DNA from: Bacteroidota bacterium
GTDB lineage: Bacteria; Bacteroidota; Bacteroidia; B-17B0; Aurantibacillaceae
Length of the DNA: 64,000 bases
Assembly: GCA_017303905.1 (NCBI GenBank)
Contig: JAFLBH010000001.1
Location: 1,279,809-1,343,808, forward strand
Reading direction: 5' to 3'
Positions within the stretch are counted from its first letter, which is position 1; each line of letters opens with the position of its first letter. Position numbers and translations under genes: made by a program. Under the pieces are notes generated by a model, which was not told where the DNA came from, searched no databases, and was given only the letters and a program-made list of their open reading frames with translations. This document shows, piece after piece, positions 10,142 through 48,687 of the stretch.

Positions 10142-10206
10142 TGACGTAAATCAGTATTTTAACTGATGAATACCAAAGTTATTCATTTAAATACGCAATA
10201 GTTTTG
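10142..10206 (+). promoter_or_regulatory. Class II FNR/CRP-like promoter of the usp-hsp20 operon
   Basis: A perfect -7 box TAGTTTTG lies at 10199-10206. Exactly 23 nt upstream is TGATGAATACCA (10164-10175, one mismatch in TGA-N6-TCA), and 22 bp further up is the perfect site TGACGTAAATCA (10142-10153). The start codon follows 17 nt after the -7 box. Confidence 0.65.
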
Positions 10207-10223
10207 ATTTAAAATTTAAACAC

Positions 10224-11048
10224 ATGGAAAATATCTTTTTAGCCATCGATTTTACAAGTGCCTCGAAAAATGCGGCTGAATACGCTGCAAATTTAGCGGG
10301 TTACTTCGGTTCGAAATTAACTTTGTTCCATTCTTACCATGCACCCATCACTAATTTCGAAACGGGTTACATTCCACCGATAACAGATATGAAGGAGGAA
10401 TCGGAACTTGAGATAAATAAATTCAAGTCAGACCTTGAATCGCGCTTTAAAGGGATTGAAATAGAGACACGCTTGGATATGGGCTTGGCAGCTGATATTG
10501 TTGAAGAAAATGCCGTTGCAAATAAAGCTGATTTAATTGTGATGGGCATCGCCGGACAAAATAGCGTCATCAAAGAACATTTAGTGGGAAGTGTGGCAAC
10601 TCAAATTGCACAAGATAGTAAAATCCCTGTTTTAATTGTACCTGAACATTGTAAATACACGAAAGTAAAGAACATCGCTTTCGCCTGTGATTTCGATAAA
10701 AAATTGGAAACGAATACTACACTACTAAAAATAAAATATTTCGTTTCTCTATTTGATGCAGAGCTCGAAATCTTAAATGTAATGGATCCGAAAGAAGAAA
10801 TCAGTGTTGAAAAAGCAGCTACCGATTTATACATCGAAGAAAAATTACAGAATACTCGCCACAAAACATTTTTCATTTATGAGGAGAATGTGGATAGGGG
10901 CATCCTTGAGTTTTTAGAAAACAATAAATGCGAATTAATTATTACAAGCCCGAAAAAGCATAATTTCTTCTATAGTTTATTTAAAGAAAGCCATACAAAG
11001 AGGTTAGCTTTTCATTCGCCAATTCCAATTTTAACAATCCACGAATAA
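10224..11048 (+). CDS. Universal stress protein, two tandem UspA domains
   Basis: A 274-residue cytoplasmic protein. The first UspA domain (about 1-140) opens with IFLAIDFTSASKNAAEYAANLA and closes with MGIAGQN...LVGSVATQIA...IPVLIVPE, which resembles the ATP-binding glycine pattern although the spacer is one residue longer than usual. The second domain (about 148-274) is degenerate, starting KNIAFACDFDKK and ending SPIPILTIHE. Tandem USPs of this kind are common in low-oxygen and starvation responses. A paralogue is at 44191. It precedes hsp20 by 42 bp and is probably co-transcribed with it from the FNR-like promoter upstream. Confidence 0.9.
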   Translation: MENIFLAIDFTSASKNAAEYAANLAGYFGSKLTLFHSYHAPITNFETGYIPPITDMKEESELEINKFKSDLESRFKGIEIETRLDMGLAADIVEENAVANKADLIVMGIAGQNSVIKEHLVGSVATQIAQDSKIPVLIVPEHCKYTKVKNIAFACDFDKKLETNTTLLKIKYFVSLFDAELEILNVMDPKEEISVEKAATDLYIEEKLQNTRHKTFFIYEENVDRGILEFLENNKCELIITSPKKHNFFYSLFKESHTKRLAFHSPIPILTIHE

Positions 11049-11077
11049 CATAATCAAAATAAAAACAAATAATCAAA

Positions 11078-11086
11078 AAAGGAGGT
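11078..11086 (+). promoter_or_regulatory. Unusually strong Shine-Dalgarno site of hsp20
   Basis: AAAGGAGGT lies 4 nt before the ATG at 11091, a near-perfect match to the anti-Shine-Dalgarno sequence. Most other genes in this window have no such motif, as is usual in Bacteroidota, so this site stands out and fixes the start. Confidence 0.75.
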
Positions 11087-11090
11087 CAAC

Positions 11091-11522
11091 ATGTCACTTG
11101 TAAAGAACAACCCAAAATTTCCATCAGTGTTTACCGATTTATTAGACTATGATAAATTTTTCGGTAACGATTTTTTCAAAGGATTTGAATCCAACTTGCC
11201 GGCTGCAAATGTTATAGAAGGCGAAAAGTCTTATAAGATTGAGCTTGCAATTCCGGGATTTAAAAAGGAAGATGTTAAAGTGAATTTAGAAAATGAAGTG
11301 CTTACCATCAGTGCTGAAACTAAAGCTGAAAAAGAGGATAAGAACGAAAAATATACCCGAAAGGAATTCTCGTATAATACGTTTTCACGCTCATTTCAGC
11401 TGCCAAAAACGGCTAATTCCGATAAAATTGATGCAAAGTATGAGAACGGACTTTTAAAGCTGGAAGTAGCTAAAAAGGACGAAGCCATAAAACAAGGACG
11501 TAAAGAAATATCCATTGGATAG
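11091..11522 (+). CDS. Hsp20 / alpha-crystallin small heat-shock protein
   Basis: A 143-residue holdase chaperone that forms oligomers and binds unfolding proteins without ATP. The alpha-crystallin domain covers about residues 38-135: it begins AANVIEGEKSYKIELAIPGF, continues KEDVKVNLENEVLTISAE, and ends with the conserved strand ENGLLKLEVAKK. Length is typical. It follows a universal stress gene, is translated from an exceptionally strong ribosome-binding site, and is followed by a terminator, so the usp-hsp20 pair forms a compact stress operon. Confidence 0.95.
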   Translation: MSLVKNNPKFPSVFTDLLDYDKFFGNDFFKGFESNLPAANVIEGEKSYKIELAIPGFKKEDVKVNLENEVLTISAETKAEKEDKNEKYTRKEFSYNTFSRSFQLPKTANSDKIDAKYENGLLKLEVAKKDEAIKQGRKEISIG

Positions 11523-11540
11523 AGTAATCGTCCCTCAACA

Positions 11541-11572
11541 AAAAAGCCCCTGCAATTGCGCGGGGGCTTTTT
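11541..11572 (+). terminator. Rho-independent terminator after hsp20
   Basis: AAAAAGCCCC and GGGGGCTTTTT pair around a GC-containing loop. The A-run and T-run on either side mean it can work in both directions, serving hsp20 and the convergent gene ending at 11592. Confidence 0.85.
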
Positions 11573-11591
11573 AATTTTATGGAGTGAGATT

Positions 11592-11993
11592 TTATTTCTG
11601 GTTGTAATACACCGGATCGCCATTGATGCCGGCTATCTCCTGAAAAAATTTATCCAATATGGCTTGTTCTTTTGGAGCCACCGGCGCAAAGGCTTTGGCG
11701 ATTTTCTCCATAACTTTTATAAAGGTTTCTTTCATTTGCGGACTCAAATAATGACTGTTGGTACGAATCTCTTTCATGGCCCAATTATAAGTGGTTTCAC
11801 TGTCCATACTGTCTTTAGACATTAATTGAAATATTATATCAGACACATCAAAGTTGTAATCCTTAGAACGTAACTCAGCCGCCACAATGCTTTGAAATTT
11901 TTCTTTTTCTTCCTTTTGTATTTTGCCATCGGCTTTCGCCACGGCATAGGCTAATTCGCCAATGGCGTAATGTAAACTTTCAATAGGTGTCAT
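11592..11993 (-). CDS. TerB-like protein
   Basis: A 133-residue, all-helical acidic protein. The pattern AIGELAYAVAKADGKIQKEEKEKFQ near the N-terminus, with an acidic metal-binding-like D-G-x-I-x-x-E-E motif, is typical of the TerB/DjlA-type fold, and a second similar half follows (ETFIKVMEKIAKAFAPVAPKEQAILDKFF). TerB proteins are linked to tellurite resistance and more broadly to stress at the membrane, but no other ter genes are nearby, so the name describes the fold only. It converges on hsp20. Confidence 0.7.
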   Translation of the reverse strand: MTPIESLHYAIGELAYAVAKADGKIQKEEKEKFQSIVAAELRSKDYNFDVSDIIFQLMSKDSMDSETTYNWAMKEIRTNSHYLSPQMKETFIKVMEKIAKAFAPVAPKEQAILDKFFQEIAGINGDPVYYNQK

Positions 11994-12078
11994 GTTTTTC
12001 TTTTAAAGATATAGAAAAATAATTCAGGTTTTTCAACAATATTTATGTAACTAAGATAATTTTTGTTAGTTTAACTGC

Positions 12079-12121
12079 TGATATTGGTCACTTTTGAATG
12101 CCCATACTCGAGTTAAGTTTA
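12079..12121 (+). promoter_or_regulatory. Class II FNR/CRP-like promoter of ccoI
   Basis: TGATATTGGTCA (12079-12090), 23 nt, then TAAGTTTA (12114-12121, five of six fixed positions of TAnnTTTG). A degenerate copy, TAATTTTTGTTA, lies 22 bp further upstream at 12057-12068. The coding start is 20 nt downstream. Confidence 0.6.
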
Positions 12122-12141
12122 CAACGGTAAAATAGAACCCT

Positions 12142-14589
12142 GTGATTATAGAAAATAAAATCAACGAGAAATTACTTTGCTACCACTGTGGAGAAGCGGT
12201 TATTAATAAAACCATTAAGCACGAGGACAAAAATTTTTGTTGCGAAGGTTGTAAAATGGTGTATGAAATTATTAATCAAAACAACCTCTGTAATTATTAC
12301 GACCTCGAAAAGAATCCAGGCATTTCACAAAAACATAAAGTTCGTGAGGGTAAATTCGCATTCCTGGATGATAAATCAATTCAGACTAGTTTAATTCATT
12401 TTACCCAAGGCAATCAAAGTCATGTCCAGTTTTATTTACCTCAAATGCATTGCAGTTCCTGTATTTGGATTCTGGAACACCTGAATAAATTACAACCGGG
12501 AATTATAAAATCTCAGGTTGATTTTTTGAAGAAGGAGATTGTAGTGGTGTTTGATCATGAGCAAACCGGACTACGAAAGATAGCAGAAACACTTACTTCT
12601 ATAGGCTATGAACCACATATCAATTTAAGCCACGTTAACAGTAAAAAAATAAGTAAATACGATAAAAGCCGCATTTTTAAAATTGGTGTTTCCGGATTTG
12701 CATTCGGTAATATCATGATGATGAGCTTTCCGGAATATTTTTCTCTCGGAACTTTTGAAGAAGAAGGTATGCGTGAGTTTTTAGGATATTTCAATCTTAT
12801 TTTGGCCCTTCCTGTTTTCTTTTATTCAGCCTCTGAATTTTTTATTTCAGCGTGGAAGGGATTCAAACAAAAGATAGTAAACATTGATGCGCCTATTGCA
12901 TTGGCAGTTCTTATTACTTTTGGTCGCTCTTTCTACGAAGTAGTTTCCGGTACCGGTGCAGGTTATTTCGACTCTATGACCGGTATTGTGTTTTTTATGC
13001 TAATCGGACGCTATTTCCAGGGAAAAACGTACGATACGCTTTCCTTTGAGCGCGATTATACTTCGTACTTTCCAATAGGTGTTACAGTATTGAATGAAAA
13101 TGGAAATGAAACGCAAATCCCGGTGTCTAATTTAAAAATCGGACAGCGAATTAAAATTCATAGTCATGAAATTATTCCCGCAGATTCAATTTTGTTTTTA
13201 GGTAAAGCTAATATCGATTACAGTTTTGTAACCGGTGAATCTCTTCCGGTTGAAAAAAACATCGGTGAAATAATTTACGCCGGCGGAAAACAAATTGGCG
13301 GAGCAATTGAATTGGAAGTAGTAAAAGAAGTTTCGCAAAGTTATCTTACCAAATTATGGAATAACGATGTATTTAAAGAAAATCAGGAAGAGAAAAAGGA
13401 ATCGTTTATCCATTCCGTGAGCCGTTATTTTACGGTGGCTTTGTTTTCGGTGGCCGCAGCGGCTGTTATTTATTGGTCTGTTTATGATTCATCGAAAGTT
13501 TGGAACGCTTTAACCGCTGTTTTAATTGTGGCTTGTCCTTGCGCCTTATTATTAAGCGCCACTTTTACGAATGGAAGTTTAATTCGATTATTGGGCAAAT
13601 TAAATCTTTATGTAAAGAACGCTAATGTCATTGAACGTATTTCTGAAGCTGATACAGTTGTATTTGACAAAACAGGAACAATCACCCGTCAGCAAGAAGC
13701 GCAAATTATTTATAATGGTCCGGATCTGACGGAAGCAGAACAACAGTTGGTAAGGTCTTTGGCTAATCAATCGAACCACCCTCTAAGTAAATCAATTGTT
13801 AGTTTTTTACCTTTTAGTAAAACATTGAGTGTGAAAAATTTTAAGGAGGAGAAGGGAAAAGGAGTAAGTGGCGTTGTTAATGGTGTTGAAATTAAGTTGG
13901 GCTCTGCCGGCTTTATGAACATTGGTAAATCAATTCATAGCGATGACGGAAGTAATGTGTATGTTATGATAGATGGTGAGATCAACGGTTGCTTTGTTAT
14001 CAAAAACGTCTATCGTGAAGGCTTAATTGAAGTGGCAGATTCTCTCCGTCAGAATTACAAACTGGCAATTATTTCGGGTGATAACGATAATGAGAAAGCT
14101 AAACTCGAAGCAATATTTGGCAAGGAAACACACATGTTGTTCAATCAAAAGCCGGAAGATAAATTGGAGTTCATTAAATCTCTGCAACAGCAAGGTCATA
14201 AAACCATTATGATAGGTGATGGATTAAACGATGCCGGTGCCTTAAAGCAAAGTGATGTAGGAATTGCTATCACCGATAATATCAATAATTTTTCACCGGC
14301 TTGCGATGCTATCTTATCCGGAGAAAAATTCAAATGGTTAAATGGTTTGATAAATTATTGTAAGAAGGAAAAGCAAATCATTTATGGAAGCTTTATTATA
14401 TCTATTCTATATAACATAGTGGGATTGTTTTTCGCGGTTCAAGGCACGCTTGAGCCGGTTATTGCAGCTATACTAATGCCCGCAAGTTCTATCAGCATTG
14501 TCTTATTTACAACAGGAATGAGTTCGTTTTATTATATGAGACTTAAATCAAGAATGAATGGAAACAAAAATTCAATCGAGCAATATTAA
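12142..14589 (+). CDS. ccoI: CcoI/FixI-type copper-translocating P-type ATPase
   Basis: An 815-residue heavy-metal P1B-ATPase that supplies copper for cbb3 oxidase assembly. The N-terminus has a Cys-rich ATPase-associated domain (CYHCGEA...CCEGCKMVYEI) and an HMA domain with C104-S-S-C107. The membrane CPC motif is at 465-467, the phosphorylated D509 in DKTGT, SNHPLSKS near 548 and GDGLNDAGAL around 692. This N-terminal layout and the adjacent cco genes separate CcoI from CopA exporters. The start is GTG; no ATG is available upstream of the conserved Cys motif. The 3' end overlaps the next gene by 32 bp. Confidence 0.93.
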   Translation: MIIENKINEKLLCYHCGEAVINKTIKHEDKNFCCEGCKMVYEIINQNNLCNYYDLEKNPGISQKHKVREGKFAFLDDKSIQTSLIHFTQGNQSHVQFYLPQMHCSSCIWILEHLNKLQPGIIKSQVDFLKKEIVVVFDHEQTGLRKIAETLTSIGYEPHINLSHVNSKKISKYDKSRIFKIGVSGFAFGNIMMMSFPEYFSLGTFEEEGMREFLGYFNLILALPVFFYSASEFFISAWKGFKQKIVNIDAPIALAVLITFGRSFYEVVSGTGAGYFDSMTGIVFFMLIGRYFQGKTYDTLSFERDYTSYFPIGVTVLNENGNETQIPVSNLKIGQRIKIHSHEIIPADSILFLGKANIDYSFVTGESLPVEKNIGEIIYAGGKQIGGAIELEVVKEVSQSYLTKLWNNDVFKENQEEKKESFIHSVSRYFTVALFSVAAAAVIYWSVYDSSKVWNALTAVLIVACPCALLLSATFTNGSLIRLLGKLNLYVKNANVIERISEADTVVFDKTGTITRQQEAQIIYNGPDLTEAEQQLVRSLANQSNHPLSKSIVSFLPFSKTLSVKNFKEEKGKGVSGVVNGVEIKLGSAGFMNIGKSIHSDDGSNVYVMIDGEINGCFVIKNVYREGLIEVADSLRQNYKLAIISGDNDNEKAKLEAIFGKETHMLFNQKPEDKLEFIKSLQQQGHKTIMIGDGLNDAGALKQSDVGIAITDNINNFSPACDAILSGEKFKWLNGLINYCKKEKQIIYGSFIISILYNIVGLFFAVQGTLEPVIAAILMPASSISIVLFTTGMSSFYYMRLKSRMNGNKNSIEQY

Positions 14590-14773
14590 GTGTGGAGGGT
14601 GCGTAAGTACTATCACCAAAGCTCTAACACAGATTCAAGGGATTAAAGCAGTCAATGTAGATATTCCAACAAATGAAATTACAATCGAATACGATGCAAG
14701 TATTGATTTAAATACTGTAAAAAATAAATTGAAAGAAATCGGTTATCCCGAAAAGGTGATTGAAATAAAATAA
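14558..14773 (+). CDS. Small HMA-domain metallochaperone (CopZ-like)
   Basis: A 71-residue protein with a complete beta-alpha-beta-beta-alpha-beta HMA domain: SSNIKCGGCVSTITKAL with the CxxC metal site (C-G-G-C), AVNVDIPTNEITIEYD and the final EIGYPEKVI. It is a likely copper donor or acceptor for the preceding ATPase. Its ATG lies within the end of ccoI in another frame, a 32-bp overlap that implies translational coupling. Copper specificity is inferred from context. Confidence 0.85.
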   Translation: METKIQSSNIKCGGCVSTITKALTQIQGIKAVNVDIPTNEITIEYDASIDLNTVKNKLKEIGYPEKVIEIK

Positions 14774-14788
14774 GCCTGTATAATACGG

Positions 14789-14890
14789 TGATTTACATCA
14801 AAATAACTGTTAAGAAAACAAAACATGAGAAAAGTCATACTTCTAACTGACGATTCTCAAACTAAACCAATTTAAGCACAAATACATTTG
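14789..14890 (+). promoter_or_regulatory. cbb3 oxidase promoter with three FNR/CRP-like sites
   Basis: A perfect -7 box TACATTTG lies at 14883-14890. Exactly 23 nt upstream is TGACGATTCTCA (14848-14859), 22 bp above that TGAGAAAAGTCA (14826-14837), and further up TGATTTACATCA (14789-14800), which matches the core of the FNR/Anr box. ccoS starts 10 nt after the -7 box. Confidence 0.75.
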
Positions 14891-14900
14891 TTATCGAATT

Positions 14901-15071
14901 ATGAGCGTAGTTTTCGTACTGATAATAGCAAGTTTAATAGTAGCCATCGGCTTTTTAATCGCCTTTATCTGGTCGGTAAAAAGCGGACAATACGAAGATG
15001 ATTACACGCCTTCAGTACGTATGCTCTTCGACGAAGAAAATAAGCAAAACCAACATAAAACAAACAAATAA
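14901..15071 (+). CDS. ccoS: cbb3 oxidase assembly protein CcoS
   Basis: A 56-residue protein. It begins MSVVFVLIIASLIVAIGFLI, one membrane helix, then FIWSVKSGQYEDDYTPSVRM. The motif W-x-x-x-x-G-Q-Y-E-D-D is diagnostic for CcoS, which is needed for cofactor insertion into cbb3 oxidase. It lies 11 bp before ccoNO, the normal context. Confidence 0.92.
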   Translation: MSVVFVLIIASLIVAIGFLIAFIWSVKSGQYEDDYTPSVRMLFDEENKQNQHKTNK

Positions 15072-15082
15072 AACACACATCT

Positions 15083-17212
15083 ATGGAACTGGAAAAATTT
15101 AGATACGACAACAAAATAGTTAAGATGTTTGCCTATGCAACCATCTTATGGAGTTTGGTAGGTATGCTGGCAGGTTTACTCGCCGCCTTGCAATTAGTTT
15201 TACCGGCTTTAAATTTTGACCTTCCTTACACGTCTTTCGGGCGCGTAAGACCAATTCACACGAATGCTATTATTTTCGCGTTTGTTGGAAATGGAATTTT
15301 TATGGGCGTTTATTACTCGATGCAACGCTTATTAAAAGCACGCATGTTTAGCGATATGCTTAGTAAAATTCACTTCTGGGGATGGCAATTAATTATCGTG
15401 TTAGCAGCTCTAACATTAGTATTAGGTTATACTACCGGTAAAGAATACGCTGAACTAGAGTGGCCAATTGATATTTTAATCACCTTGGTGTGGGTAGTGT
15501 TCGGATGGAATATGTTTGGTACAATCTTGCGTCGTCGTGAACGCCATTTATATGTTGCCATTTGGTTTTATATAGCCACTTTCGTCACTGTTGCAATGTT
15601 ACACATTGTTAACTCAATTGAAATTCCGGTTTCATTAACTAAATCTTATTCATGGTATGCCGGTGTACAAGATGCATTGGTGCAATGGTGGTACGGACAT
15701 AATGCGGTAGCGTTTTTCTTAACAACACCATATTTAGGTTTAATGTATTACTTCTTACCAAAAGCCGCAAACCGTCCGGTGTTCTCTTATAGATTATCTA
15801 TTATTCACTTCTGGGCTTTAATTTTCATTTACATTTGGGCTGGACCTCACCACTTATTATACACAGCAACGCCTGATTGGGCACAATCTCTCGGTGTTGT
15901 ATTCTCTGTAATGTTAATTGCTCCAAGTTGGGGTGGTATGATTAATGGTTTATTAACCTTGCGCGGCGCATGGGATCGCGTGCGTGATAGTGTTGTGTTG
16001 AAGTTTTTAGTGGTGGCTGTTACTGCATATGGTATGGCAACGTTTGAAGGTCCGATGTTATCTCTTAAAAATGTAAACGCAATTAGTCACTTTACTGATT
16101 GGACCATTGCTCACGTTCACGTTGGTGCTTTAGGATGGAATGGTTTCTTAACCTTCGGTATTTTATATTGGTTAATACCACGATTATTTCAAACAAAATT
16201 ATACTCCGATAAATTAGCGAACATGCACTTTTGGATTGGAACTTTAGGAATTGTAGTTTATGCAGTGCCTTTATATTGGGCTGGTTTCATGCAAAGTTCT
16301 ATGTGGAAAGACTTCACTCCTGAAGGACAATTAAAATGGCAGTTCATGGATACGATTACTAAGATGATGCCATTCTACATCGCGAGAGCTATTGGCGGAA
16401 CGTTATATTTAATCGGCGCCATCGTTATGACTTACAACTTAATTAAAACAGTTAAGATGGGTAACTTCCTTGAAGTGGAAGAAGCAGAAGCACCAGCATT
16501 AAGTGGTGAATATCATTCACACGCTAAAGATCACTGGCACCGTTGGATTGAACGCAAGCCGGTGCAATTAATGGTGTTGAGTTTAGTAGTGGTTGCCATT
16601 GGCGGTATCATCGAATTTGTTCCGGCTTTCTTAGTGAAATCAAATATTCCAACTATCTCCAGTGTAAAACCATATACACCGCTTGAATTAGAAGGTCGTG
16701 ATATATATGTGCGTGAAGGTTGTTACGTATGTCATTCACAAATGATTCGTCCGTTCAGAAGTGAAACTGCACGTTATGGCGAATATTCAAAAGCAGGTGA
16801 ATTTGTTTATGATCATCCATTCCAATGGGGCTCTAAGCGTACAGGTCCGGATTTAGCACGCATTGGTGGAAAGTATCCCGACAGCTGGCATTATAATCAT
16901 ATGTTAGACCCAACCAGTATGTCACCTAACTCTATTATGCCACCTTACTCTTGGTTATTAGATGATGATTTAAATACATCTCTGTTAAGTGGAAAAATTA
17001 ATGCCATGAAAACTTTAGGTGTTCCATATCCGGAAGGTTACGAAGACAAAGCCATTGATGATTTAAATAAGCAAGCAGAAGAAATCACTGCTAACTTAAA
17101 GAAAGATGGAATTGAAACAGCTTCTAACAAAGAAATCATCGCGCTGATAGCCTACTTACAGCGTATGGGTAAAGATATTAAAGCAGAAAATAAAGAAGTA
17201 GCTAACAAATAA
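15083..17212 (+). CDS. ccoNO: cbb3-type cytochrome c oxidase, fused subunits I and II (CcoN-CcoO)
   Basis: A 709-residue fusion of the catalytic haem-copper subunit and the monohaem subunit of the high-affinity terminal oxidase. Residues about 1-475 are CcoN: IHTNAIIFAFVGNGIFMG, WWYGHNAVAFFLTTPYLG (copper/haem His region), GPHHLLYTATPDW and HVHVGALGWNGF. A membrane helix near 500 leads into CcoO with C547-Y-V-C550-H551 and RTGPDLARIGGKYPDSWH, MPPYSWL. Fusion of N and O is a known Bacteroidota arrangement. It reduces O2 at low oxygen and pumps protons. Confidence 0.96.
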   Translation: MELEKFRYDNKIVKMFAYATILWSLVGMLAGLLAALQLVLPALNFDLPYTSFGRVRPIHTNAIIFAFVGNGIFMGVYYSMQRLLKARMFSDMLSKIHFWGWQLIIVLAALTLVLGYTTGKEYAELEWPIDILITLVWVVFGWNMFGTILRRRERHLYVAIWFYIATFVTVAMLHIVNSIEIPVSLTKSYSWYAGVQDALVQWWYGHNAVAFFLTTPYLGLMYYFLPKAANRPVFSYRLSIIHFWALIFIYIWAGPHHLLYTATPDWAQSLGVVFSVMLIAPSWGGMINGLLTLRGAWDRVRDSVVLKFLVVAVTAYGMATFEGPMLSLKNVNAISHFTDWTIAHVHVGALGWNGFLTFGILYWLIPRLFQTKLYSDKLANMHFWIGTLGIVVYAVPLYWAGFMQSSMWKDFTPEGQLKWQFMDTITKMMPFYIARAIGGTLYLIGAIVMTYNLIKTVKMGNFLEVEEAEAPALSGEYHSHAKDHWHRWIERKPVQLMVLSLVVVAIGGIIEFVPAFLVKSNIPTISSVKPYTPLELEGRDIYVREGCYVCHSQMIRPFRSETARYGEYSKAGEFVYDHPFQWGSKRTGPDLARIGGKYPDSWHYNHMLDPTSMSPNSIMPPYSWLLDDDLNTSLLSGKINAMKTLGVPYPEGYEDKAIDDLNKQAEEITANLKKDGIETASNKEIIALIAYLQRMGKDIKAENKEVANK

Positions 17213-17223
17213 AATATAAAGCC

Positions 17224-17394: not shown

Positions 17395-17405
17395 AAAGTC
17401 GGTTT

Positions 17406-18620: not shown

Positions 18621-18622
18621 TT

Positions 18623-30758: not shown

Positions 30759-30801
30759 CAAATATAAGCAATTAAAAGTGAAATGTAAATGATAAATTTC
30801 A
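30759..30801 (-). promoter_or_regulatory. Class II FNR/CRP-like promoter of the His-rich/metal efflux operon
   Basis: On the minus strand, TGAAATTTATCA (30801-30790), 23 nt, then a perfect TATATTTG (30766-30759). The ATG at 30750 follows 8 nt later, which supports that start over the upstream one. Confidence 0.6.
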
Positions 30802-32288: not shown

Positions 32289-32331
32289 CAAATGTCAGTT
32301 TTCTTTGCAGTCTATTCTGTGACTTAGGTTA
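32289..32331 (-). promoter_or_regulatory. Class II FNR/CRP-like promoter of the DUF2892 gene
   Basis: Reading the minus strand: TAACCTAAGTCA (32331-32320, one mismatch), 23 nt, then GACATTTG (32296-32289). The plus-strand reading extends it to TGTGACTTAGGTTACACA, close to the CRP consensus. The upstream partner site TGACAAAAATCA begins 22 bp away. Confidence 0.6.
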
Positions 32332-32341
32332 CACACGATTA

Positions 32342-32411
32342 TGATTTTTGTCAGCCTTTCCCACTTTCTGACTTAGGTCATGTTATTCATACGCATCAAA
32401 AAATACATTTA
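32342..32411 (+). promoter_or_regulatory. Class II FNR/CRP-like promoter of paaABCD
   Basis: TGACTTAGGTCA (32369-32380, a perfect palindrome) is followed by 23 nt and TACATTTA (32404-32411). A second site, TGATTTTTGTCA, lies at 32342-32353. With the site at 32320, three copies fall within 61 bp between divergent genes. paaA starts 15 nt after the -7 box. Confidence 0.7.
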
Positions 32412-35008: not shown

Positions 35009-35056
35009 TTGTGTGACCTTTGTCACACAATTTACCTTGTTTGCTTCCGACATTTG
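35009..35056 (+). promoter_or_regulatory. Perfect CRP-consensus palindrome and promoter of the redox operon
   Basis: Two 9-bp arms, TTGTGTGAC and GTCACACAA, flank a 4-bp spacer (35009-35030) and contain the full consensus TGTGA-N6-TCACA. From its TGACCTTTGTCA core (35014-35025) there are exactly 23 nt to GACATTTG (35049-35056). The predicted transcription start falls at or next to the GTG at 35061. Confidence 0.75.
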
Positions 35057-36934: not shown

Positions 36935-36977
36935 TGATCTAAATCATTTTTATTTATTGGCGATTAATTCACCTTTG
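36935..36977 (+). promoter_or_regulatory. Class II FNR/CRP-like promoter of hmgA
   Basis: TGATCTAAATCA (36935-36946), 23 nt, then CACCTTTG (36970-36977). The site nearly equals the one before the histidine kinase gene (TGACCTAAATCA), and both are followed by TTTTT. hmgA starts 19 nt downstream. Confidence 0.65.
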
Positions 36978-39343: not shown

Positions 39344-39355
39344 TTTAATCATCTG

Positions 39356-39413: not shown

Positions 39414-39428
39414 TTTTTATTTTAAGCT

Positions 39429-41314: not shown

Positions 41315-41323
41315 AAATTTTTT

Positions 41324-42289: not shown

Positions 42290-42310
42290 ATTATTATACT
42301 ATAAGAAACA

Positions 42311-42341
42311 AAAAGCCCCGAGGTTTGCACTCGGGGCTTTT
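42311..42341 (+). terminator. Strong bidirectional terminator
   Basis: AAAAGCCCCGAG and CTCGGGGCTTTT pair over 12 bp around a 7-nt loop, flanked by A and T runs. It lies between the kynurenine operon and the convergent gene ending at 42361. Confidence 0.92.
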
Positions 42342-42360
42342 TTTATGATTTTAATTTATA

Positions 42361-42681: not shown

Positions 42682-42720
42682 AGTATTGTGTTTTTATAGG
42701 TTTGTATTATTTTCCTAATA

Positions 42721-42786
42721 CAAATGTCACCAATAGCAACGCGATGAAGAATGATGGAGGTCAGTTCAGGAAACTGATTTTTGTCA
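42721..42786 (-). promoter_or_regulatory. Tandem FNR/CRP-like promoter of the small membrane protein gene
   Basis: Minus strand: TGACAAAAATCA (42786-42775), then TGACCTCCATCA (42763-42752) 23 bp downstream, then 23 nt and GACATTTG (42728-42721). The upstream 12-mer is identical to the upstream site of the DUF2892 promoter. Confidence 0.7.
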
Positions 42787-42791
42787 GTTTT

Positions 42792-43172
42792 CTATACGTC
42801 ACCCGCAAAAGCCAAAACATGTCCATCTGAATCAGCAACATAGCCGACTACATGTCCCCAATCACGAACCTTGGGAAGGCTAATCAGTAGAGCGCCGGCA
42901 GTTATAGCGCGATTAAAATATTCCTGATAGGCCGGGTCTTTGAGATAGAGTTCACAGCGTGGTACACCCTTGGCTAAAGATGGATGAGGCATTATCGGAC
43001 AAATTATTTTAGCAATTCCCGAGTCGGGCATTAATCCAAGTTTCGTAGATTCACCCAATTCAAATTCAACCATTCCAGGCACGTCTAAGGAAGGTAATTG
43101 GTTTAACGCAAAACTGTAGAAGGTTTTGCTTTTCTCAAGATTACTAACATATAAGATGAATTCTGTTTCCAT
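42792..43172 (-). CDS. Glyoxalase/VOC-superfamily protein
   Basis: A 126-residue protein with the beta-alpha-beta-beta-beta pattern of the vicinal oxygen chelate fold: ETEFILYVSNLEKSKTFYSF at the start, CELYLKDPAYQEYFNRAI and the closing HVVGYVADSDGHVLAFAG. The final strand keeps the typical DPDGH-like motif as DSDGH. The His/Glu metal ligands are not all obvious. Substrate unknown; could be an antibiotic-resistance-like or lyase member. Confidence 0.8.
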   Translation of the reverse strand: METEFILYVSNLEKSKTFYSFALNQLPSLDVPGMVEFELGESTKLGLMPDSGIAKIICPIMPHPSLAKGVPRCELYLKDPAYQEYFNRAITAGALLISLPKVRDWGHVVGYVADSDGHVLAFAGDV

Positions 43173-43182
43173 GTTTAAATAT

Positions 43183-43210
43183 AAAAAAGGGCCGCGAATA
43201 ATCGCAGCCC
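43183..43210 (-). terminator. Rho-independent terminator (minus strand)
   Basis: On the minus strand GGGC-T-GCGA and TCGC-G-GCCC pair around TTAT (43210-43189), followed by TTTTTT (43188-43183). It ends the gene at 43237-43617. Confidence 0.8.
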
Positions 43211-43236
43211 TCTATCCAAATAAACCACATAATAAA

Positions 43237-43617
43237 TTACATCCACTTAGCTAAAAAAGCATTCAGTTCCTTACGCAATTCATTAAATACCTTATCAAAA
43301 GATGTATAACTATCGCGCATTTTTGGATGGTCGTTTACCTTACGGTGGTCAACAGCCGTTGGGTTTTCATTGACCCTGTTTTCTAAATAGTTTTCATGAT
43401 CTTTAATGCTATGGCATAGTTCGTCAATGTTATTACGTTGAATAATAAGTTGGTTCTGGAAATGTTCGATTTGTTTTAACACTTCGGGAGATGAATTTTT
43501 AGAAGCTACTTCAGAAATACGGTTTTGCATTACTTTAATTTCGTCTTTATAAAAGGCCAAATTATTTAACCATTCTTTATGCTCTTCATGAAGTTCATAG
43601 ATTTTTTTCGTTTCCAT
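43237..43617 (-). CDS. Small coiled-coil protein, function unknown
   Basis: A 126-residue, highly charged, helical protein without signal or membrane segment. Heptad-like stretches include LAFYKDEIKVMQNRISEVA and LKQIEHFQNQLIIQRNNIDEL. The N-terminus IYELHEEHKEWLNNL and the His/Glu content recall small stress proteins, but I recognise no family. It is transcribed divergently from the DoxX/USP operon and shares its FNR-like site, for which it has the better -7 box. Confidence 0.65.
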   Translation of the reverse strand: METKKIYELHEEHKEWLNNLAFYKDEIKVMQNRISEVASKNSSPEVLKQIEHFQNQLIIQRNNIDELCHSIKDHENYLENRVNENPTAVDHRKVNDHPKMRDSYTSFDKVFNELRKELNAFLAKWM

Positions 43618-43649
43618 TCTATATTGTTTTTAGGTTATTAACTACTCCA

Positions 43650-43692
43650 CAAATCTGCAACATAATGGACGCTGAACTTATGATAAAGATCA
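43650..43692 (-). promoter_or_regulatory. FNR/CRP-like promoter, leftward half of a divergent pair
   Basis: Minus strand: TGATCTTTATCA (43692-43681), 23 nt, CAGATTTG (43657-43650). The gene starts 32 nt further on. Confidence 0.6.
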
Positions 43693-43723
43693 CCTTTTAG
43701 TTTGATTATGCTCACGCTTTTTG
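43681..43723 (+). promoter_or_regulatory. FNR/CRP-like promoter, rightward half of a divergent pair
   Basis: The same site read rightward, TGATAAAGATCA, is followed by 23 nt and GCTTTTTG (43716-43723), a weaker -7 box that keeps the TTTG end. Confidence 0.5.
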
Positions 43724-43759
43724 TATATTTAATAAATCAACTTTGTAAAACCTTTACCA

Positions 43760-44188
43760 ATGGAAATTAGTATAAAATATTATGCAGTAGAGTTAATTCT
43801 CCGCGTTTTTTGCGGGGTTATTTTTATGTTTCAGGGATACGATAAAATATTTAATGTAAAAATTCGGGGTGTGATTGAAACATTCCGATATGAAGCGCAG
43901 CAAAAGAACATACCTTCTTTTTTGTTGACGTTTTCAGCTTATTATACTTCCTATGTAGAGTTTTTCGGCGGACTGTTGTTAATTCTGGGTTTGTTTAAAA
44001 ATTACGCATTAAGTTTATTAGGATTAGATTTAGTAATGGTAGCCATCGCATTTTCCTATTTGAAACCAATGTGGGATATGCGATTTGTTTTTCCGAGAAT
44101 AATTCTGGTAAGTATCCTATTGATATTACCAACACGGTGGGCTTATTTTAGTTTAGATCATTTATTAAGAATATTATTAGCTAAATAA
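43760..44188 (+). CDS. DoxX/MauE-like membrane protein
   Basis: A 142-residue protein with four helices. The opening ELILRVFCGVIFMFQGYDKIF is the DoxX-type first helix, followed by YTSYVEFFGGLLLILGLF and further segments. DoxX proteins relate to redox or thiol stress in some bacteria, and the biochemical role is open. It starts an operon with a universal stress protein (2 bp gap) and a small unknown protein. Confidence 0.8.
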   Translation: MEISIKYYAVELILRVFCGVIFMFQGYDKIFNVKIRGVIETFRYEAQQKNIPSFLLTFSAYYTSYVEFFGGLLLILGLFKNYALSLLGLDLVMVAIAFSYLKPMWDMRFVFPRIILVSILLILPTRWAYFSLDHLLRILLAK

Positions 44189-44190
44189 GT

Positions 44191-45012
44191 ATGAAAAAGA
44201 TAAAAAGTACAAAAACGATTTTAGTGGGTATTGATTATACCAAATCATCCGACAACGCATTAAATTATGCTGCCCTTTTAGCAAAACGAAATAAGGCTTC
44301 CATAATGCTTTTCCATATTTATGAAACGCCGGTTATTCATACTTATTCAGGAGCTTATTTTATTTCTTATAAAGAGATGCAGGGATTTAATATGGCTCGT
44401 TTGAATAAGTATAAATCGAAGGTGGAAGAAAAGCATCCTGGCATTACATTTGAAACCTTTTCAACCTATAAGTCTTTTAAGGCAGGGGTAAGTGATTTGA
44501 TTAAAAGCAGGAAAGTACATTACGTTGTACTCGGACTCGAGTCAAAATCTAAGTTCTCTAAATTTATTTATGGCACTACCGGATTGGAAGTAGCAGGAAA
44601 AATCAGTTGTCCGGTTATTATAGTACCGGAGCGATACAAGGATCATCGCTTAAATAAAATGGTGTTGGCTATTGATAATCAAAAAACACTTGAAACCAAG
44701 TTGATGCAAAAGGTAAAGGACTTTTCGAAAAACTTCAAAGCTGATTTGAGTGCCTTACATGTAAAAACAGAAAATGAGTTCATGCTCATTCCACATAAGA
44801 AATCTGAGAACGCAAACAAAAAATGGAAAGTTAACACGGTGGAAGCAAAGGATTTTGAAAGCGGTTTATTTGCTTATGTGAAAAGCAACAAAGTAGATTT
44901 AATAACCCTTATCAGTCATTCACATTCACTGATGTATAATTTATTTAACGAGTCAAATACTAAACAAATAGCATTTAAAACTAAAGTGCCAATAATGTCA
45001 ATACACGATTAA
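44191..45012 (+). CDS. Universal stress protein, tandem UspA domains
   Basis: A 273-residue paralogue of the protein at 10224. Domain one begins TILVGIDYTKSSDNALNYAALLA and ends LGLESKSKFSKFIYGTTGLEV...CPVIIVPE; domain two begins KMVLAIDNQKTLETK and ends KVPIMSIHD. The shared closing (PI-x-SIHD versus PI-LTIHE) and similar length indicate duplication and divergence. The glycine-rich nucleotide motif is incomplete, so ATP binding is uncertain. Confidence 0.88.
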   Translation: MKKIKSTKTILVGIDYTKSSDNALNYAALLAKRNKASIMLFHIYETPVIHTYSGAYFISYKEMQGFNMARLNKYKSKVEEKHPGITFETFSTYKSFKAGVSDLIKSRKVHYVVLGLESKSKFSKFIYGTTGLEVAGKISCPVIIVPERYKDHRLNKMVLAIDNQKTLETKLMQKVKDFSKNFKADLSALHVKTENEFMLIPHKKSENANKKWKVNTVEAKDFESGLFAYVKSNKVDLITLISHSHSLMYNLFNESNTKQIAFKTKVPIMSIHD

Positions 45013-45031
45013 TTTATAAAATAAAAGAACT

Positions 45032-45397
45032 ATGATTATAAATATCACCAATAACAAAACAATAGAAGAGTTGCAAGCGGATTTCAATAATGAATTCCCA
45101 TACTTGAAGATTCAGTTTTTTAAGCATAGTCATAAGATGTTTAAGGGCAGCGATAAAAAGGAATTAATTCCTATCAGTACTACTATTGGCGCATTAAAAC
45201 ATCATAATGGTGCTATTGAGATAAGCGATAATATGACGGTAAGTGATCTTGAGACTATGTTCAAACAAAAGCTTGGATTAAATGTACAAGTATTCCGTAA
45301 ATCAGGAAGAAGCTGGTTGGAAACTACTGTAACCGATAACTGGACACTAAGAAAACAAAATGATGAAGGCAAGGAATTAAGTGTACTTGAAATTTAG
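45032..45397 (+). CDS. Conserved-looking small protein of unknown function
   Basis: A 121-residue cytoplasmic protein. Two halves may be related: IEELQADFNNEFPYLKIQFFK near the N-terminus and VSDLETMFKQKLGLNVQVFRK in the second half, each a helix followed by a strand. This suggests a duplicated alpha-beta unit. No family recognised. It lies 19 bp after the universal stress gene, so it probably belongs to the same stress operon. Confidence 0.65.
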   Translation: MIINITNNKTIEELQADFNNEFPYLKIQFFKHSHKMFKGSDKKELIPISTTIGALKHHNGAIEISDNMTVSDLETMFKQKLGLNVQVFRKSGRSWLETTVTDNWTLRKQNDEGKELSVLEI

Positions 45398-45437
45398 TCC
45401 TTAACAGGTTTTCTACCTAAAAAAATTGTAATAGTTT

Positions 45438-46178
45438 TTATTCATTAAGTTTAGTTTTAGTATTTCTCCAAATCAAATCTTTATAGTTTCTTCTTTGAAT
45501 CAAATCATAAGCGCCATCTTTGTTTAACAAGAAGAAACGTTCTCCCTCTTCATCTTTGAAGAAGAACCTTCCGTTTTTATCAATAGGAAACATTTGACGT
45601 GGAATACCACCATTTTTGTGGCTCATTAATTTATTGTTGTCTAAGTAAATTTTTATATAAGAATTTTCTGATAATTGATAAGTACCTTCATATTGTTTAA
45701 GTAATTCTGCATAAACGACACAAACAGCCGGGTCGATGGGAATTTCGTAATATTCAAAAACTTTAAGCTTCCAAACCTTATTTATTTTTTCAAAATAGTT
45801 GGTAGTTCTGAATTTTGTATCCATAATCTGTCCGAAAATTTTAAGATGTTCATCAGCTATGAATGTTGCAAATGCTGAATTTCCATTTATATAGATCTTT
45901 AAATCCTTTACATCAATGCTGAATTCTCTGCCTGTGCTTGGCGGGTGTAATTCTGATACAAGCTCTTCTCGTGAGTAAAGCTTACCATCGCGATTTATCA
46001 TTACACCATCTACGTTCATATACTTCATCCAAATACTTTTATCACCAGTGGTAACTGCAGTTTCCAATTCTGTAATCATAGTTGCAAGAATCGTACTGTC
46101 GGTGTCGTTTGATGCTAGTGTGCTCAGAGTAATAAATAAAGGAAATAGAGCGCTCAAAGGTTTAATTATTTTTCTCAT
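45438..46178 (-). CDS. Exported NTF2-like (DUF4440/SnoaL-type) protein
   Basis: A 246-residue protein from ATG 46178; a start 45 bp upstream exists but overlaps the promoter box. After a signal peptide (IIKPLSALFPLFITLSTLAS) comes an NTF2-like domain, ITELETAVTTGDKSIWMKYM...DGVMINRDGKLYSREEL, ending KVWKLKVFEYYEIP. The last about 80 residues are beta-rich (KQYEGTYQLSENSYIKIYLD...RFFFKDEEGERFFLL), a pattern seen in secreted hydrolase-associated domains. Function unknown. Confidence 0.7.
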   Translation of the reverse strand: MRKIIKPLSALFPLFITLSTLASNDTDSTILATMITELETAVTTGDKSIWMKYMNVDGVMINRDGKLYSREELVSELHPPSTGREFSIDVKDLKIYINGNSAFATFIADEHLKIFGQIMDTKFRTTNYFEKINKVWKLKVFEYYEIPIDPAVCVVYAELLKQYEGTYQLSENSYIKIYLDNNKLMSHKNGGIPRQMFPIDKNGRFFFKDEEGERFFLLNKDGAYDLIQRRNYKDLIWRNTKTKLNE

Positions 46179-46189
46179 CGTCTTTTTTT

Positions 46190-46235
46190 CAAATGTAGTT
46201 TTGATTAAAAGACAGGTTAACACCCTTTTTGGGTG
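46190..46235 (-). promoter_or_regulatory. Promoter with CACCC/GGGTG palindrome
   Basis: A perfect -7 box TACATTTG (minus strand, 46197-46190) lies 11 nt before the ATG at 46178. The palindrome CACCC-TTTTT-GGGTG (46221-46235) begins 23 nt upstream of that box, where the TGA-N6-TCA site lies at other promoters, suggesting a different regulator. Further ACCCC/GGG elements follow at 46260-46280. Confidence 0.5.
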
Positions 46236-46338
46236 ATTTGTTTTTTAACGGAAATAAATACCCCAAAGTGGGCTACCCCAAATTTCGGTATAAATGATAA
46301 AGGTTGGATGTTATGGTACTTATTACAGTATTGCTTTG

Positions 46339-47397
46339 CTAAGCCTTTAATTTCTTTAGCTTTTCATAGTTCGTAATAGTGATATTACTGCTTTTCACTT
46401 CAATTAATTTTTCTTCTTTAAAATCACTTAAAGTTCTGATTAAAGACTCCGTAGCTGTTCCAACTATGTTCGCTAAATCTTCACGCGAAATGGAAATATT
46501 GAATTTCTCTTCCGGTTGTTTATTGTAGCGGTCGTAAAGAGTTACAAGCGCGTTGGCAACACGTTTTCTAACCGAGCTATAGGCCAGGTTTACCAGTTGA
46601 TTTTCTTTTTCAATAATATTATCACTCAACATTTTGATGAATTTCTTCATCACACCGGCGTTATTATAAATCAGAGAATAAAAATCTTCCTTCGGAATTA
46701 ATAATACATCACTGTCTTCCAATGCCTCAGCATTTTCAGCAAAAGGTAAATCCTCCAATAAGGCAATGTAACCAAAGAAATCACCTTCCTTATATAAGTT
46801 TGTTATAAATTCCTTTCCGTATTCGTGCGATTTGAAAGTTTTTACTTTCCCTTTTGCCAGGAAGTAAAGAAAATTAGGGGAGCTACCTTCGTTAAAAATA
46901 ATTTCTTTTTTCTTGAAGGATTTTATACGACGGTCATTTGATAATTTTTTTAATTCTTCAATGTTTTTAATGTCGTCGAAGAATTTGTTAACGCCATCTA
47001 CATTATTAGAAAATTCATTCTTAAGAAGCTCGGCTTTTTTCAGGCGACTTTCTACAGCACGTAATAACTCTACATCATCAAAAGGTTTGGTGATATAATC
47101 ATCAGCCCCCATCTCCATACCTTTTCTGAAATCACCACGTTCGGTTTTTGCTGTTAAAAATATAAATGGAATGGTTGATGTTTCTGTGTTTTTAGATAAC
47201 ATATGAATTACGCCATAACCATCTAATACAGGCATCATAATGTCACAAATAATTAAATCGGGTTTGTTAGCCTGCGCTAATTCCACACCAATTTTACCGT
47301 TTTCCGCTTGTAATACTTTGAAATTAGCGAGTTCCAGAATTTCAGCTGTATTTTCTCTTACTTCAACGTTATCTTCAATTAATAAAATGGTTTTCAT
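46339..47397 (-). CDS. Response regulator: receiver fused to CRP/FNR-type DNA-binding module
   Basis: A 352-residue fusion. Residues 1-120 are a receiver with phosphoacceptor D52 (LIICDIMMPVLDGYG) and K104. Residues about 150-270 have the cyclic-nucleotide-binding fold, but the phosphate cassette reads FFGYIALLEDLPFAENAEA, lacking the CRP Glu and Arg-Ser that hold cAMP. Residues about 275-345 are a CRP-type winged helix. Its recognition helix TATESLIRTL carries E317 and R321 at the CRP E181/R185 positions, with Thr in place of R180, a set expected to read TGA half-sites. Phosphorylation rather than cAMP is the likely signal. It lies 14 bp after the kinase gene. Confidence 0.9.
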   Translation of the reverse strand: MKTILLIEDNVEVRENTAEILELANFKVLQAENGKIGVELAQANKPDLIICDIMMPVLDGYGVIHMLSKNTETSTIPFIFLTAKTERGDFRKGMEMGADDYITKPFDDVELLRAVESRLKKAELLKNEFSNNVDGVNKFFDDIKNIEELKKLSNDRRIKSFKKKEIIFNEGSSPNFLYFLAKGKVKTFKSHEYGKEFITNLYKEGDFFGYIALLEDLPFAENAEALEDSDVLLIPKEDFYSLIYNNAGVMKKFIKMLSDNIIEKENQLVNLAYSSVRKRVANALVTLYDRYNKQPEEKFNISISREDLANIVGTATESLIRTLSDFKEEKLIEVKSSNITITNYEKLKKLKA

Positions 47398-47411
47398 AAT
47401 TATTTTGTGTT

Positions 47412-48626
47412 TTATATTTTTTGATACGGTATGTCGATTATAAATGTTGTTCCGATATTTAATTCGCTATTGAAATCAATCTTACCTTTCATTTCTTCAA
47501 TATATTTGGCAACGATACTCAATCCTAAGCCGGTACCCTGAATGTTTGTAGCGTTTTTTGCGCGGTAGAAACGTTCAAATAGATTGTTTTGTTCTTCTTT
47601 AGGGATTCCTATGCCCTGATCTTTTACTTCAATGTGAACAGCGTTATTTTCATTGGAGATGAAAACCGAAATAATTTTGTCTTCTAATGAAAATTTGATA
47701 GCATTTGAAATAAGGTTAATGAAGATGTTACGCATCATTTGCTTATCAAGATACACAATTTCACTACCCAAAAAAGTAAAGTCAATTTTTTGGTTTGGCT
47801 TTAATAAACCGCTTAATTCATTAATGATTTCATTAACGAGTTGTTTTAAATCAAATTCTACCGGTGAAGCTGCAACCTTTCCTGCTTCCAGTTTTTCGGC
47901 CGATAAAAAATCATTAAGTATAAGGGTCATGTTGGTTACGGCCGATTTAACGCGATCAACATGTTTATTTCTTTTTTGATCCTCATCTTCTGTTTTGTAC
48001 TTACTAATTAGCGATACAGATGAGAGAATAGTACTTAAAGGAGTGCGAAACTCGTGCGAAGCCATAGTAACAAATCGCGACTTCAAATCATTCAGTTCTT
48101 TTTCTTTTTCTAAAGCTTTGCTTAATTGTTCTTTCGATTGCTCAAGTTCTTTGAGCGCTTCCTGCAATACTTTAGTTCGTTCACTTACCTTTTGTTCCAG
48201 CTCAATGTTAACTCTTTTAATTTTTTCTTGAGCAGCAAGTCGCTCAGAAATATCAATGATGAAAGCGACAACACGCATTTCATTATCTTGAACAAAGTGG
48301 GTTAAACTAATCTCTACAGGAAACTCAGTGCCATCTTTTCTTTTCGCCATTAAGGCTATATCCTGACCCATTGATCGTGAGTGAGGATTTTTGTTGAACT
48401 TTTCGCGATGACCCTGATGTCTGTGTGTTAAATGATCCGGTATCAAATTTTCAACTGTTTTACCAATTAACTCTCCTTTATTATATCCAAACAAACGTTC
48501 GGAACTCGGATTGGCTTTGGTAATAACACCTTTTTTATCGGTGATGATAATGCCTTCAGTAGCAAATTCAAATAAAGCATTAAGGCTTTCCATTTCTTTT
48601 TTCTTATCCGAATTCAAGATAGGCAT
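47412..48626 (-). CDS. PAS-domain sensor histidine kinase
   Basis: A 404-residue soluble kinase without membrane helices. The PAS domain spans about residues 12-130, a coiled linker follows, and then HisKA with H191 in SHEFRTPLSTIL and HATPase_c with NLISNAIKFS, VKDQGIGIP and GTGLGLSIVAKYIEE. The PAS resembles FixL: H70 (in THRHQGH) aligns with the FixL haem His, but the FixL oxygen-sensing Arg is Ile here (I90). A haem, flavin or other ligand is therefore possible but unproven. Cognate partner is the receiver-CRP gene that follows. Confidence 0.92.
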   Translation of the reverse strand: MPILNSDKKKEMESLNALFEFATEGIIITDKKGVITKANPSSERLFGYNKGELIGKTVENLIPDHLTHRHQGHREKFNKNPHSRSMGQDIALMAKRKDGTEFPVEISLTHFVQDNEMRVVAFIIDISERLAAQEKIKRVNIELEQKVSERTKVLQEALKELEQSKEQLSKALEKEKELNDLKSRFVTMASHEFRTPLSTILSSVSLISKYKTEDEDQKRNKHVDRVKSAVTNMTLILNDFLSAEKLEAGKVAASPVEFDLKQLVNEIINELSGLLKPNQKIDFTFLGSEIVYLDKQMMRNIFINLISNAIKFSLEDKIISVFISNENNAVHIEVKDQGIGIPKEEQNNLFERFYRAKNATNIQGTGLGLSIVAKYIEEMKGKIDFNSELNIGTTFIIDIPYQKI

Positions 48627-48644
48627 TTTTTTAAAATTAACTAA

Positions 48645-48687
48645 GCAAGGTAACCGGATTAGTTAATCTCAAAAATGATTTAGGTCA
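48645..48687 (-). promoter_or_regulatory. FNR/CRP-like promoter of the kinase-regulator operon
   Basis: Minus strand: TGACCTAAATCA (48687-48676), 23 nt, then TACCTTGC (48652-48645), a weaker -7 box. It suggests autoregulation of the two-component pair. Confidence 0.55.

Follow-up and report, generated by a model that had tools for sequence, protein, structure and literature searches.

A 64,000-nt stretch of the genome of a Bacteroidota bacterium of the Aurantibacillaceae (assembly GCA_017303905.1, contig JAFLBH010000001.1, positions 1,279,809 to 1,343,808; hereafter the window) contains a series of promoters in which a CRP/FNR-like site, TGAN6TCA, lies exactly 23 nt upstream of a −7 box resembling TAnnTTTG. 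These promoters are consistent with one regulon whose sites, centered at −41.5 and often paired with another at −63.5, would be bound by dimers of a response regulator encoded nearby. This protein, a fusion of a receiver with a CRP/FNR module (REC-CRP), would be activated at low oxygen by a neighboring heme-PAS kinase, and we assign this reading a probability of roughly two in three. The sites keep a fixed geometry, are conserved among related bacteria and cluster around the REC-CRP gene, the product of which retains conserved receiver and recognition-helix residues. Genes behind them include those for cbb3 oxidase, CcoI-type ATPase, universal stress proteins, DoxX, and glutamyl-tRNA reductase.

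Spacing, tandem organization, and conservation of the promoters

The strict composite TGAN6TCA-N23-NAnnTTTG occurs seven times in the window, compared with a mean of 0.13 and a maximum of 2 in 200 dinucleotide shuffles. Across the whole genome (3.95 Mb, six contigs), the version with the complete TAnnTTTG box occurs 11 times, and a reversed control yields none. The same distance emerges when the gap is left free. TGAYN4RTCA and NAnnTTTG form 53 pairs across 31 spacings genome-wide, 18 of which (including four in the window) are separated by exactly 23 nt (binomial p ~3e-14), and with TAnnTTTG as the box, 8 of 19 pairs over 31 gap values have this spacing. A first-pass annotation of the window had proposed the fixed 23-nt distance, which these counts bear out. 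The site-spacing pattern observed in the window is real.

A flavobacterial transcription-start map (PMC9723704) locates the −7 box between −12 and −5, which together with the 23-nt gap puts the center of the site at −41.5. The class II-like location suggested earlier is therefore supported, insofar as the box position is taken from flavobacterial start sites. A possible loss of the −33 element at regulon promoters was also considered and proved uninformative, with TTTG found there in 2.3% of 43 regulon promoters versus 4.8% of 270 other TAnnTTTG promoters.

The promoter unit becomes clearer in 80 related loci, which lie around relatives of the window regulator (the best 80 of 587 confirmed matches) and derive from GTDB species records that include many metagenome assemblies. 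When TGAN6TCA is paired with NAnnTTTG there, the gap is 23 nt in 120 cases and 45 nt in 103, and no other gap between 5 and 45 nt exceeds 15 cases. Pairs of sites are spaced by 22 bp in 103 cases and by 23 bp in 11, and every other distance up to 60 accounts for four cases at most. Five control palindromes gave no spacing spike in these loci. The spikes at 23 nt, 45 nt, and 22 bp indicate a tandem at −63.5 and −41.5, and most units in related loci are tandems of this kind. Among 151 strict site-plus-box promoters, spread over 69 of the 80 loci, both sites are strict in 72, only the proximal in 48, and only the distal in 31, and a partner within two mismatches is present in 115. In the average profile, the distal copy reads TGAYAAAARTCA-T and is preceded by an A-rich stretch, and the proximal one reads C-TGAYN5TCAT. 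Strict tandems reach 74 per Mb in these loci (103 tandems in 50 of the 80; reversed control 0). The first genes behind the promoters (n = 145) encode Usp (14), the kinase (12), CcoNO/COX1 (10), GlutR (9), DoxX (9), CcoI-type ATPase (7), YgaP-like (6), radical-SAM (6), and HSP20 (4) proteins.

A scoring matrix was trained solely on the 80 related loci, with the window promoters excluded from training. Its scan of the window returned nine promoters above 12 bits (shuffle mean 0.43), five of which exceed 20 bits, a score that none of 60 shuffles contained; the paaA, DUF6132, and 48676 promoters are not among the nine. The promoters are as follows.

10142-10153 (distal site), 10164-10175 (proximal site), 10199-10206 (box), + strand: usp-hsp20 promoter, matrix score 29.2
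12079-12090 (site), 12114-12121 (box), + strand: promoter of ccoI (copper P-type ATPase), matrix score 14.3
14826-14837 (distal), 14848-14859 (proximal), 14883-14890 (box), + strand: ccoS-ccoNO promoter, matrix score 35.3, the best in the window
30759..30801, − strand: candidate promoter of a His-rich protein gene, single site, matrix score 16.5
32342-32353 (distal), 32320-32331 (proximal), 32289-32296 (box), − strand: promoter of a YgaP-like membrane protein gene (DUF2892), matrix score 32.1
32369..32411 (site 32369-32380, box TACATTTA), + strand: promoter of paaA (phenylacetic acid catabolic protein)
35014..35056, + strand: candidate promoter of the DUF6132/DUF983 operon, single site, matrix score not above 12 bits
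36935..36977 (site 36935-36946, box CACCTTTG), + strand: promoter of hmgA (homogentisate dioxygenase-like), matrix score 17.2
42775-42786 (distal, at 23 bp), 42752-42763 (proximal), 42721-42728 (box), − strand: promoter of a small protein gene, matrix score 16.2
43650..43745 (sites 43681-43692 and 43703-43714): bidirectional promoter of a coiled-coil gene (−) and DoxX-USP (+), matrix scores 27.5 and 30.1
48645..48687 (site 48676-48687, box TACCTTGC at 48645-48652), − strand: promoter of the kinase-regulator operon

The first-pass annotation had named twelve promoters, and all twelve show a word resembling TGAN6TCA at a distance of 23 nt from a −7-like box. The TAnnTTTG box itself is exact in only three (10164, 14848, and 30790), with one mismatch in eight and two at 48676, and a recount finds two 12-mers with a mismatched site (10164 and 32320) rather than the three reported. 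The single site at 23 nt was correctly recognized, but a second site 22 to 23 bp upstream had been left undescribed; such second sites lie at 10142, 14826, 32342 (−), 42775 (−), and, in both directions, 43681/43703. At this last promoter, each site is proximal for one divergent gene and distal for the other. The site at 43681 had been assigned to DoxX, the promoter of which instead uses 43703 and the box CAACTTTG, with 43681 serving as the upstream partner there and as the proximal site for the gene transcribed in the other direction. A third TGAN6TCA word, at 14789-14800, precedes the distal ccoS-ccoNO site by 37 bp. The product of the DUF2892 gene matches Pfam YgaP-like_TM.

Conservation was assessed in twenty stretches from twelve related genomes by searching 200 nt upstream of each gene. 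The composite precedes 43 of 65 homologues of the named targets and their operon partners, as compared with 2 of 75 other genes in the same stretches (terB 1/2, trx2 1/3) and 0.57% of 2800 shuffled upstream regions. The usp2 gene (0/6) was counted among the controls because it directly follows doxX. By promoter, the counts are 4/4 for ccoI (all tandem), 7/8 for doxX, 8/11 for the kinase, 4/6 for the small protein (all tandem), 4/6 for the coiled-coil protein, 2/4 for usp, and 1/1 for hsp20, and they include G397, a genome of nearly the same species as that of the window. The composite is likewise found at hmgA in six of eight relatives and the site at 23 nt at paaA in five of six, where spacer letters vary between genomes and the core is kept. 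Without G397, the fractions become 4/5 for paaA, 5/7 for hmgA, 7/10 for the kinase, 6/7 for doxX, and 3/5 each for the small and coiled-coil proteins. Homologues of ccoNO show the composite in 0/3 relatives (200-nt search) and in 16/22 cases among the 80 loci (350-nt search), and DUF2892 homologues in 1/3 and 3/3 cases, respectively.

The 80 more distant loci have no composite at hmgA (0/4) or paaA (0/1), for which reason control of these aromatic pathways is likely a feature of the family to which the window genome belongs. A second hmgA-like gene (L165, G000:C5:303411-304565), 64% identical to the hmgA of the window, lacks the composite site. No composite was found in relatives at the His-rich promoter (0/2) or the DUF6132 promoter (0/1, with a composite at DUF983 only in the near-identical G397), and the sites at these two promoters possibly arose by chance. 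The earlier proposal of an oxygen or redox regulon with twelve members stands for the low-oxygen and redox genes, whereas these two memberships find no support in relatives. Overall, the data support a regulon with a fixed class II-like position and low-oxygen/redox membership.

The REC-CRP regulator and its partner kinase

The operon behind the promoter at 48645..48687 encodes two proteins.

46339..47397, − strand: P0001, REC-CRP fusion response regulator, 352 aa, with Pfam receiver, cNMP_binding, and HTH_Crp_2 domains
47412..48626, − strand: P0002, PAS histidine kinase (Pfam), 404 aa, with a PAS domain resembling that of FixL

The first-pass annotation listed this pair only as a target. The target site is present, but the pair likely also encodes the protein that binds the sites of the regulon, as its domains and genomic setting suggest. 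A site at the promoter of its own operon makes autoregulation possible.

P0001 belongs to the CRP/FNR superfamily, with PF00027 and PF13545 both above the Pfam cut-off, and fused receiver and CRP/FNR domains are present in all of the best 120 protein relatives listed. Receivers are characterized by a phospho-acceptor Asp, an acidic pocket, a Thr, and a Lys. In an alignment of 81 REC-CRP sequences, D9, D52, and K104 do not vary, nor do E317 and R321 of the recognition helix, and T82 is present in 97.5%. Retention of the receiver residues, together with a kinase gene that immediately precedes the regulator, at no more than 113 nt, in 77 of the 80 loci, identifies the protein as a two-component response regulator. 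The kinase lies 1042 nt away in one further locus and was not found in two of the 80. Among cultured relatives, Runella limosa DSM 17973 carries the pair.

The same 81 sequences bear on what the regulator itself might sense. One cysteine occurs in 54 of them, two in 20, and three or four in seven; the conserved cysteine, C51, is within the receiver, and no cluster of the FNR (Fe-S) type is present. The presence of only one or two cysteines in 74 of 81 sequences speaks against Fe-S sensing by REC-CRP. The cAMP pocket of CRP contains a phosphate-binding Arg and Ser, and no conserved Arg was found at residues 205-232 of the REC-CRP alignment.

In a PDB sequence search, the PAS domain of the partner kinase matches FixL with E ~3e-13. 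The proximal heme ligand of FixL is a His. In the alignment, H70 of the kinase stands opposite the 'RH' of FixL and is kept in 62 of the 63 rows with a residue at this position. The combination of a PAS domain and a proximal His is that of FixL-type heme-PAS proteins, and heme-based oxygen sensing is predicted for the kinase. This combination is absent from 14 of 78 kinases, in which the alignment shows a receiver in place of the PAS domain (loci L044, L053, L059, L065, L069, L074-L076, L080-L082, L086, L088, and L091); Pfam agrees in all eight that were scanned. These include several Pontibacter, Rufibacter, and Adhaeribacter loci, and site-plus-box promoters are kept in 13 of the 14. At the level of sequence, the exchange of PAS for a receiver is an input swap.

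Genes resembling those of heme synthesis adjoin the kinase-regulator pair under promoters of this regulon type in four loci (L057, L073, L065, and L074). A radical-SAM/HemN-like gene in L057 (7354-8712) and a radical-SAM gene in L073 (7197-8558) lie ahead of the kinase, and a glutamyl-tRNA reductase gene follows the regulator in L065 (11709-12974) and L074 (11158-12417).

These features suggest how the promoters might be controlled. Low oxygen would switch on the heme-PAS kinase, which would phosphorylate REC-CRP and thereby drive its dimers onto the DNA. Two dimers would then occupy adjacent sites, roughly two turns of the helix from each other, with the distal dimer acting cooperatively and the proximal dimer contacting RNA polymerase as a class II activator. 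At a class II promoter, the alpha subunit of RNA polymerase would presumably occupy the position of the second site, which lends interest to how activation would work here.

Candidate readers of the sites

The link between tandem sites and REC-CRP was evaluated in a sample of 392 genomes of Bacteroidota; a REC-CRP homologue at E<=1e-50 is encoded in 59 of them. The contrast was limited to 105 genomes of the same class (59 with and 46 without REC-CRP). The 287 genomes of other classes were left out; none has REC-CRP at this threshold, and they include G271, G306, G380, and G384, with 7-10 tandems each. Genomes with REC-CRP contain 238 tandems in 266.9 Mb, or 0.89 per Mb (reversed control 3), and those without contain 28 in 181.4 Mb, or 0.15 per Mb (control 12).

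Several observations weigh against assigning the sites to REC-CRP and its heme-PAS kinase. The tandem contrast (Mann-Whitney p 7e-9) is uncorrected for kinship, and the strict tandem is absent from 12 of the 59 REC-CRP genomes, 11 of them in family f5. The site at the kinase's own promoter recurs in only 13 to 18 of 75 more distant loci. Many of the 75 control genes in the conservation comparison are operon-internal and thus form a lenient control. The window genome encodes five HTH_Crp_2 proteins besides REC-CRP. Regarding the sensor, the top PDB match of the PAS domain is 10jx, a chain that bears only the name 'multi-sensor' histidine kinase, followed by FixL entries and then DosP, and the 14 receiver-type kinases indicate that PAS-based sensing is not universal. 

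The composite with up to two mismatches is not significant in the window (21 matches versus 15 expected), so the signal needs the stricter form. This result, along with the modest excess of single TGAN6TCA words in the window (34 versus 20 expected, only 1.7x), is what might be expected if the pattern were produced by chance in AT-rich promoters. For the set as a whole, chance is rejected by the spacing, tandem, and conservation tests, and we consider it very improbable.

A different protein of the same family might read the sites. The window genome encodes an FNR-like protein (gene at C1:638.5-639.2 kb; L120, G000:C1:635500-641500) with CxxCxxC near its N-terminus, and if this protein, sensing oxygen by an Fe-S cluster, were the reader, REC-CRP would simply be one of the genes that it controls. 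The recognition helix of the FNR-like protein resembles that of REC-CRP (GTTTETSIR versus GTATESLIR), which counts against the preference for REC-CRP; single 23-nt sites lie at or near its gene (637180, 639235); and FNR-like genes adjoin tandem sites in genomes without REC-CRP. The helix core GTATE-x-x-IR-x-L, common to REC-CRP and the FNR-like proteins of tandem-rich genomes, also occurs in FNR-like proteins of G012, G021, and G076, which have no tandem, so likeness of the recognition helix is weak evidence. Around the FNR-like gene of the window genome, only single sites and no tandem were seen, whereas tandems cluster around REC-CRP. Moreover, the 31 of 59 REC-CRP genomes with at least three tandems were searched using a cysteine-type FNR query, and 16 gave either no match at E<=1e-30 or only REC-CRP itself, although more distant CRP/FNR paralogues may remain. 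These 16 genomes hold 96 tandems (reversed control 1). We regard control by the FNR-like protein as unlikely.

About as doubtful is an arrangement in which REC-CRP and FNR bind overlapping sets of sites and the regulon integrates two oxygen signals. The two recognition helices are nearly alike, and REC-CRP coexists with a cysteine-bearing CRP/FNR protein in at least G000, G072, G126, G146, G166, G174, G222, G296, and G314. On the other hand, the FNR-like gene of the window genome adjoins MoeA- and MobA-like (molybdenum-cofactor) genes and a cytochrome c gene, and near it TGATTATAATCA or TGATTAGAATCA occurs as a single site at the 23-nt distance (L120 and L122, the latter G000:C1:661000-667000). 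Outside the window, single TGATTATAATCA sites near molybdenum-cofactor genes, cytochrome c, and a hemerythrin-domain protein have no strict 22-bp partner, which suggests some separation of circuits. Given the single 23-nt sites at C1:625-665 kb near the FNR-like and molybdenum-cofactor genes, more than one circuit may use this spacing in the window genome.

Genomes that are rich in tandems and lack REC-CRP provide a further view of the same promoter grammar. G150, G364, G017, and G273, plus G271, G306, G380, and G384 of another class, encode FNR-like proteins with 6-8 cysteines. In G150, G364, and G273, the FNR-like gene belongs to the cbb3 cluster and a tandem separates it from ccoI; tandems also precede ccoNO in G150, G273, and G017 and precede ccoI or the gene ahead of it in G017 and G384. 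A FixH-family gene in the G273 cluster has its own tandem promoter (L241:15520-15945). The stretches from six of these genomes (L234-L249) were chosen by the tandem pattern, such that their 22-bp spike exists by construction and only the box distance is independent. Sixteen of 25 tandems have a box-like word at exactly 23 nt on one or both sides and two more have one at 24 nt, and counted by site, the leading gaps are 23 (19 cases), 45 (14), 24 (6), and 46 (4). No box-like word was found at 23 or 24 nt from the FNR-ccoI tandems of G150 and G364. In a tree of 16 rows, the REC-CRP sequences make up a single clade that contains none of the stand-alone proteins (98/99), and the tree gives no direction of change.

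One tentative explanation, to which we give somewhat less than even odds, is that the regulator has been replaced. The tandem grammar (−63.5/−41.5/−7) on cbb3 and stress genes would be read by a cysteine-bearing FNR or, elsewhere and even within one family, by a phosphorylation-gated REC-CRP fed by a FixL-like kinase, or by a receiver-input kinase in Pontibacter-like genomes. The sensor chemistry would have changed while the promoter code was kept. If true, this would be a natural experiment in exchanging a global regulator's sensor without altering the spacing of the regulator's binding sites. If REC-CRP reads the sites, an abundant phylum would gain a defined regulon for low oxygen that has a promoter grammar of its own, and REC-CRP would represent a one-protein version of the FixJ-FixK relay.

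Relation to known regulatory systems

A literature search, which left most subscription journals outside its reach, found no description of a REC-CRP fusion regulon or of a −63.5/−41.5 tandem in Bacteroidota. FNR is a CRP-family activator that senses oxygen by an Fe-S cluster and acts from a TGA-N6-TCA site at −41.5, with cbb3 oxidase among its targets. The regulon in the window resembles that of FNR in site, position, and cbb3 target, and REC-CRP shares the recognition-helix core with Bacteroidota FNR-like proteins. It differs in having only one or two cysteines in 74 of 81 sequences, with the conserved C51 in the receiver.

Two precedents come from Bacteroidota. BT4338 (MalR) of Bacteroides thetaiotaomicron, assigned to the CRP/FNR family in PMC8510549, is likewise a Bacteroidota regulator at a −7-type promoter. 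It differs in its proposed site, wwwTATGTTnTAnAACATAwww, and in its signal, carbon limitation (PMC6989115). CRP/FNR homologues in metagenome-assembled genomes of Flavobacteriales and Saprospiraceae (PMC8510549) are similar in that they belong to related bacteria under changing oxygen; they differ in that MalR-like carbon sensing is predicted for them, and the words 'receiver' and 'tandem' are absent from the main text of that report.

A functional parallel is found in the rhizobial FixL-FixJ-FixK system (PMC9104804, PMC7888657), which likewise features a FixL-like PAS kinase, a response regulator, a DNA-binding output of the CRP/FNR family, and a cbb3 oxidase target. In place of a separate FixJ that activates fixK, the window encodes a receiver and a CRP/FNR module in one chain, and the relay would be one step shorter. 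The tandem sites at −63.5 and −41.5 and the Bacteroidota −7 box are further differences. The regulator and kinase of the window would work like FixLJ-FixK, yet they are not a member of that system because the receiver and the CRP/FNR output are one protein.

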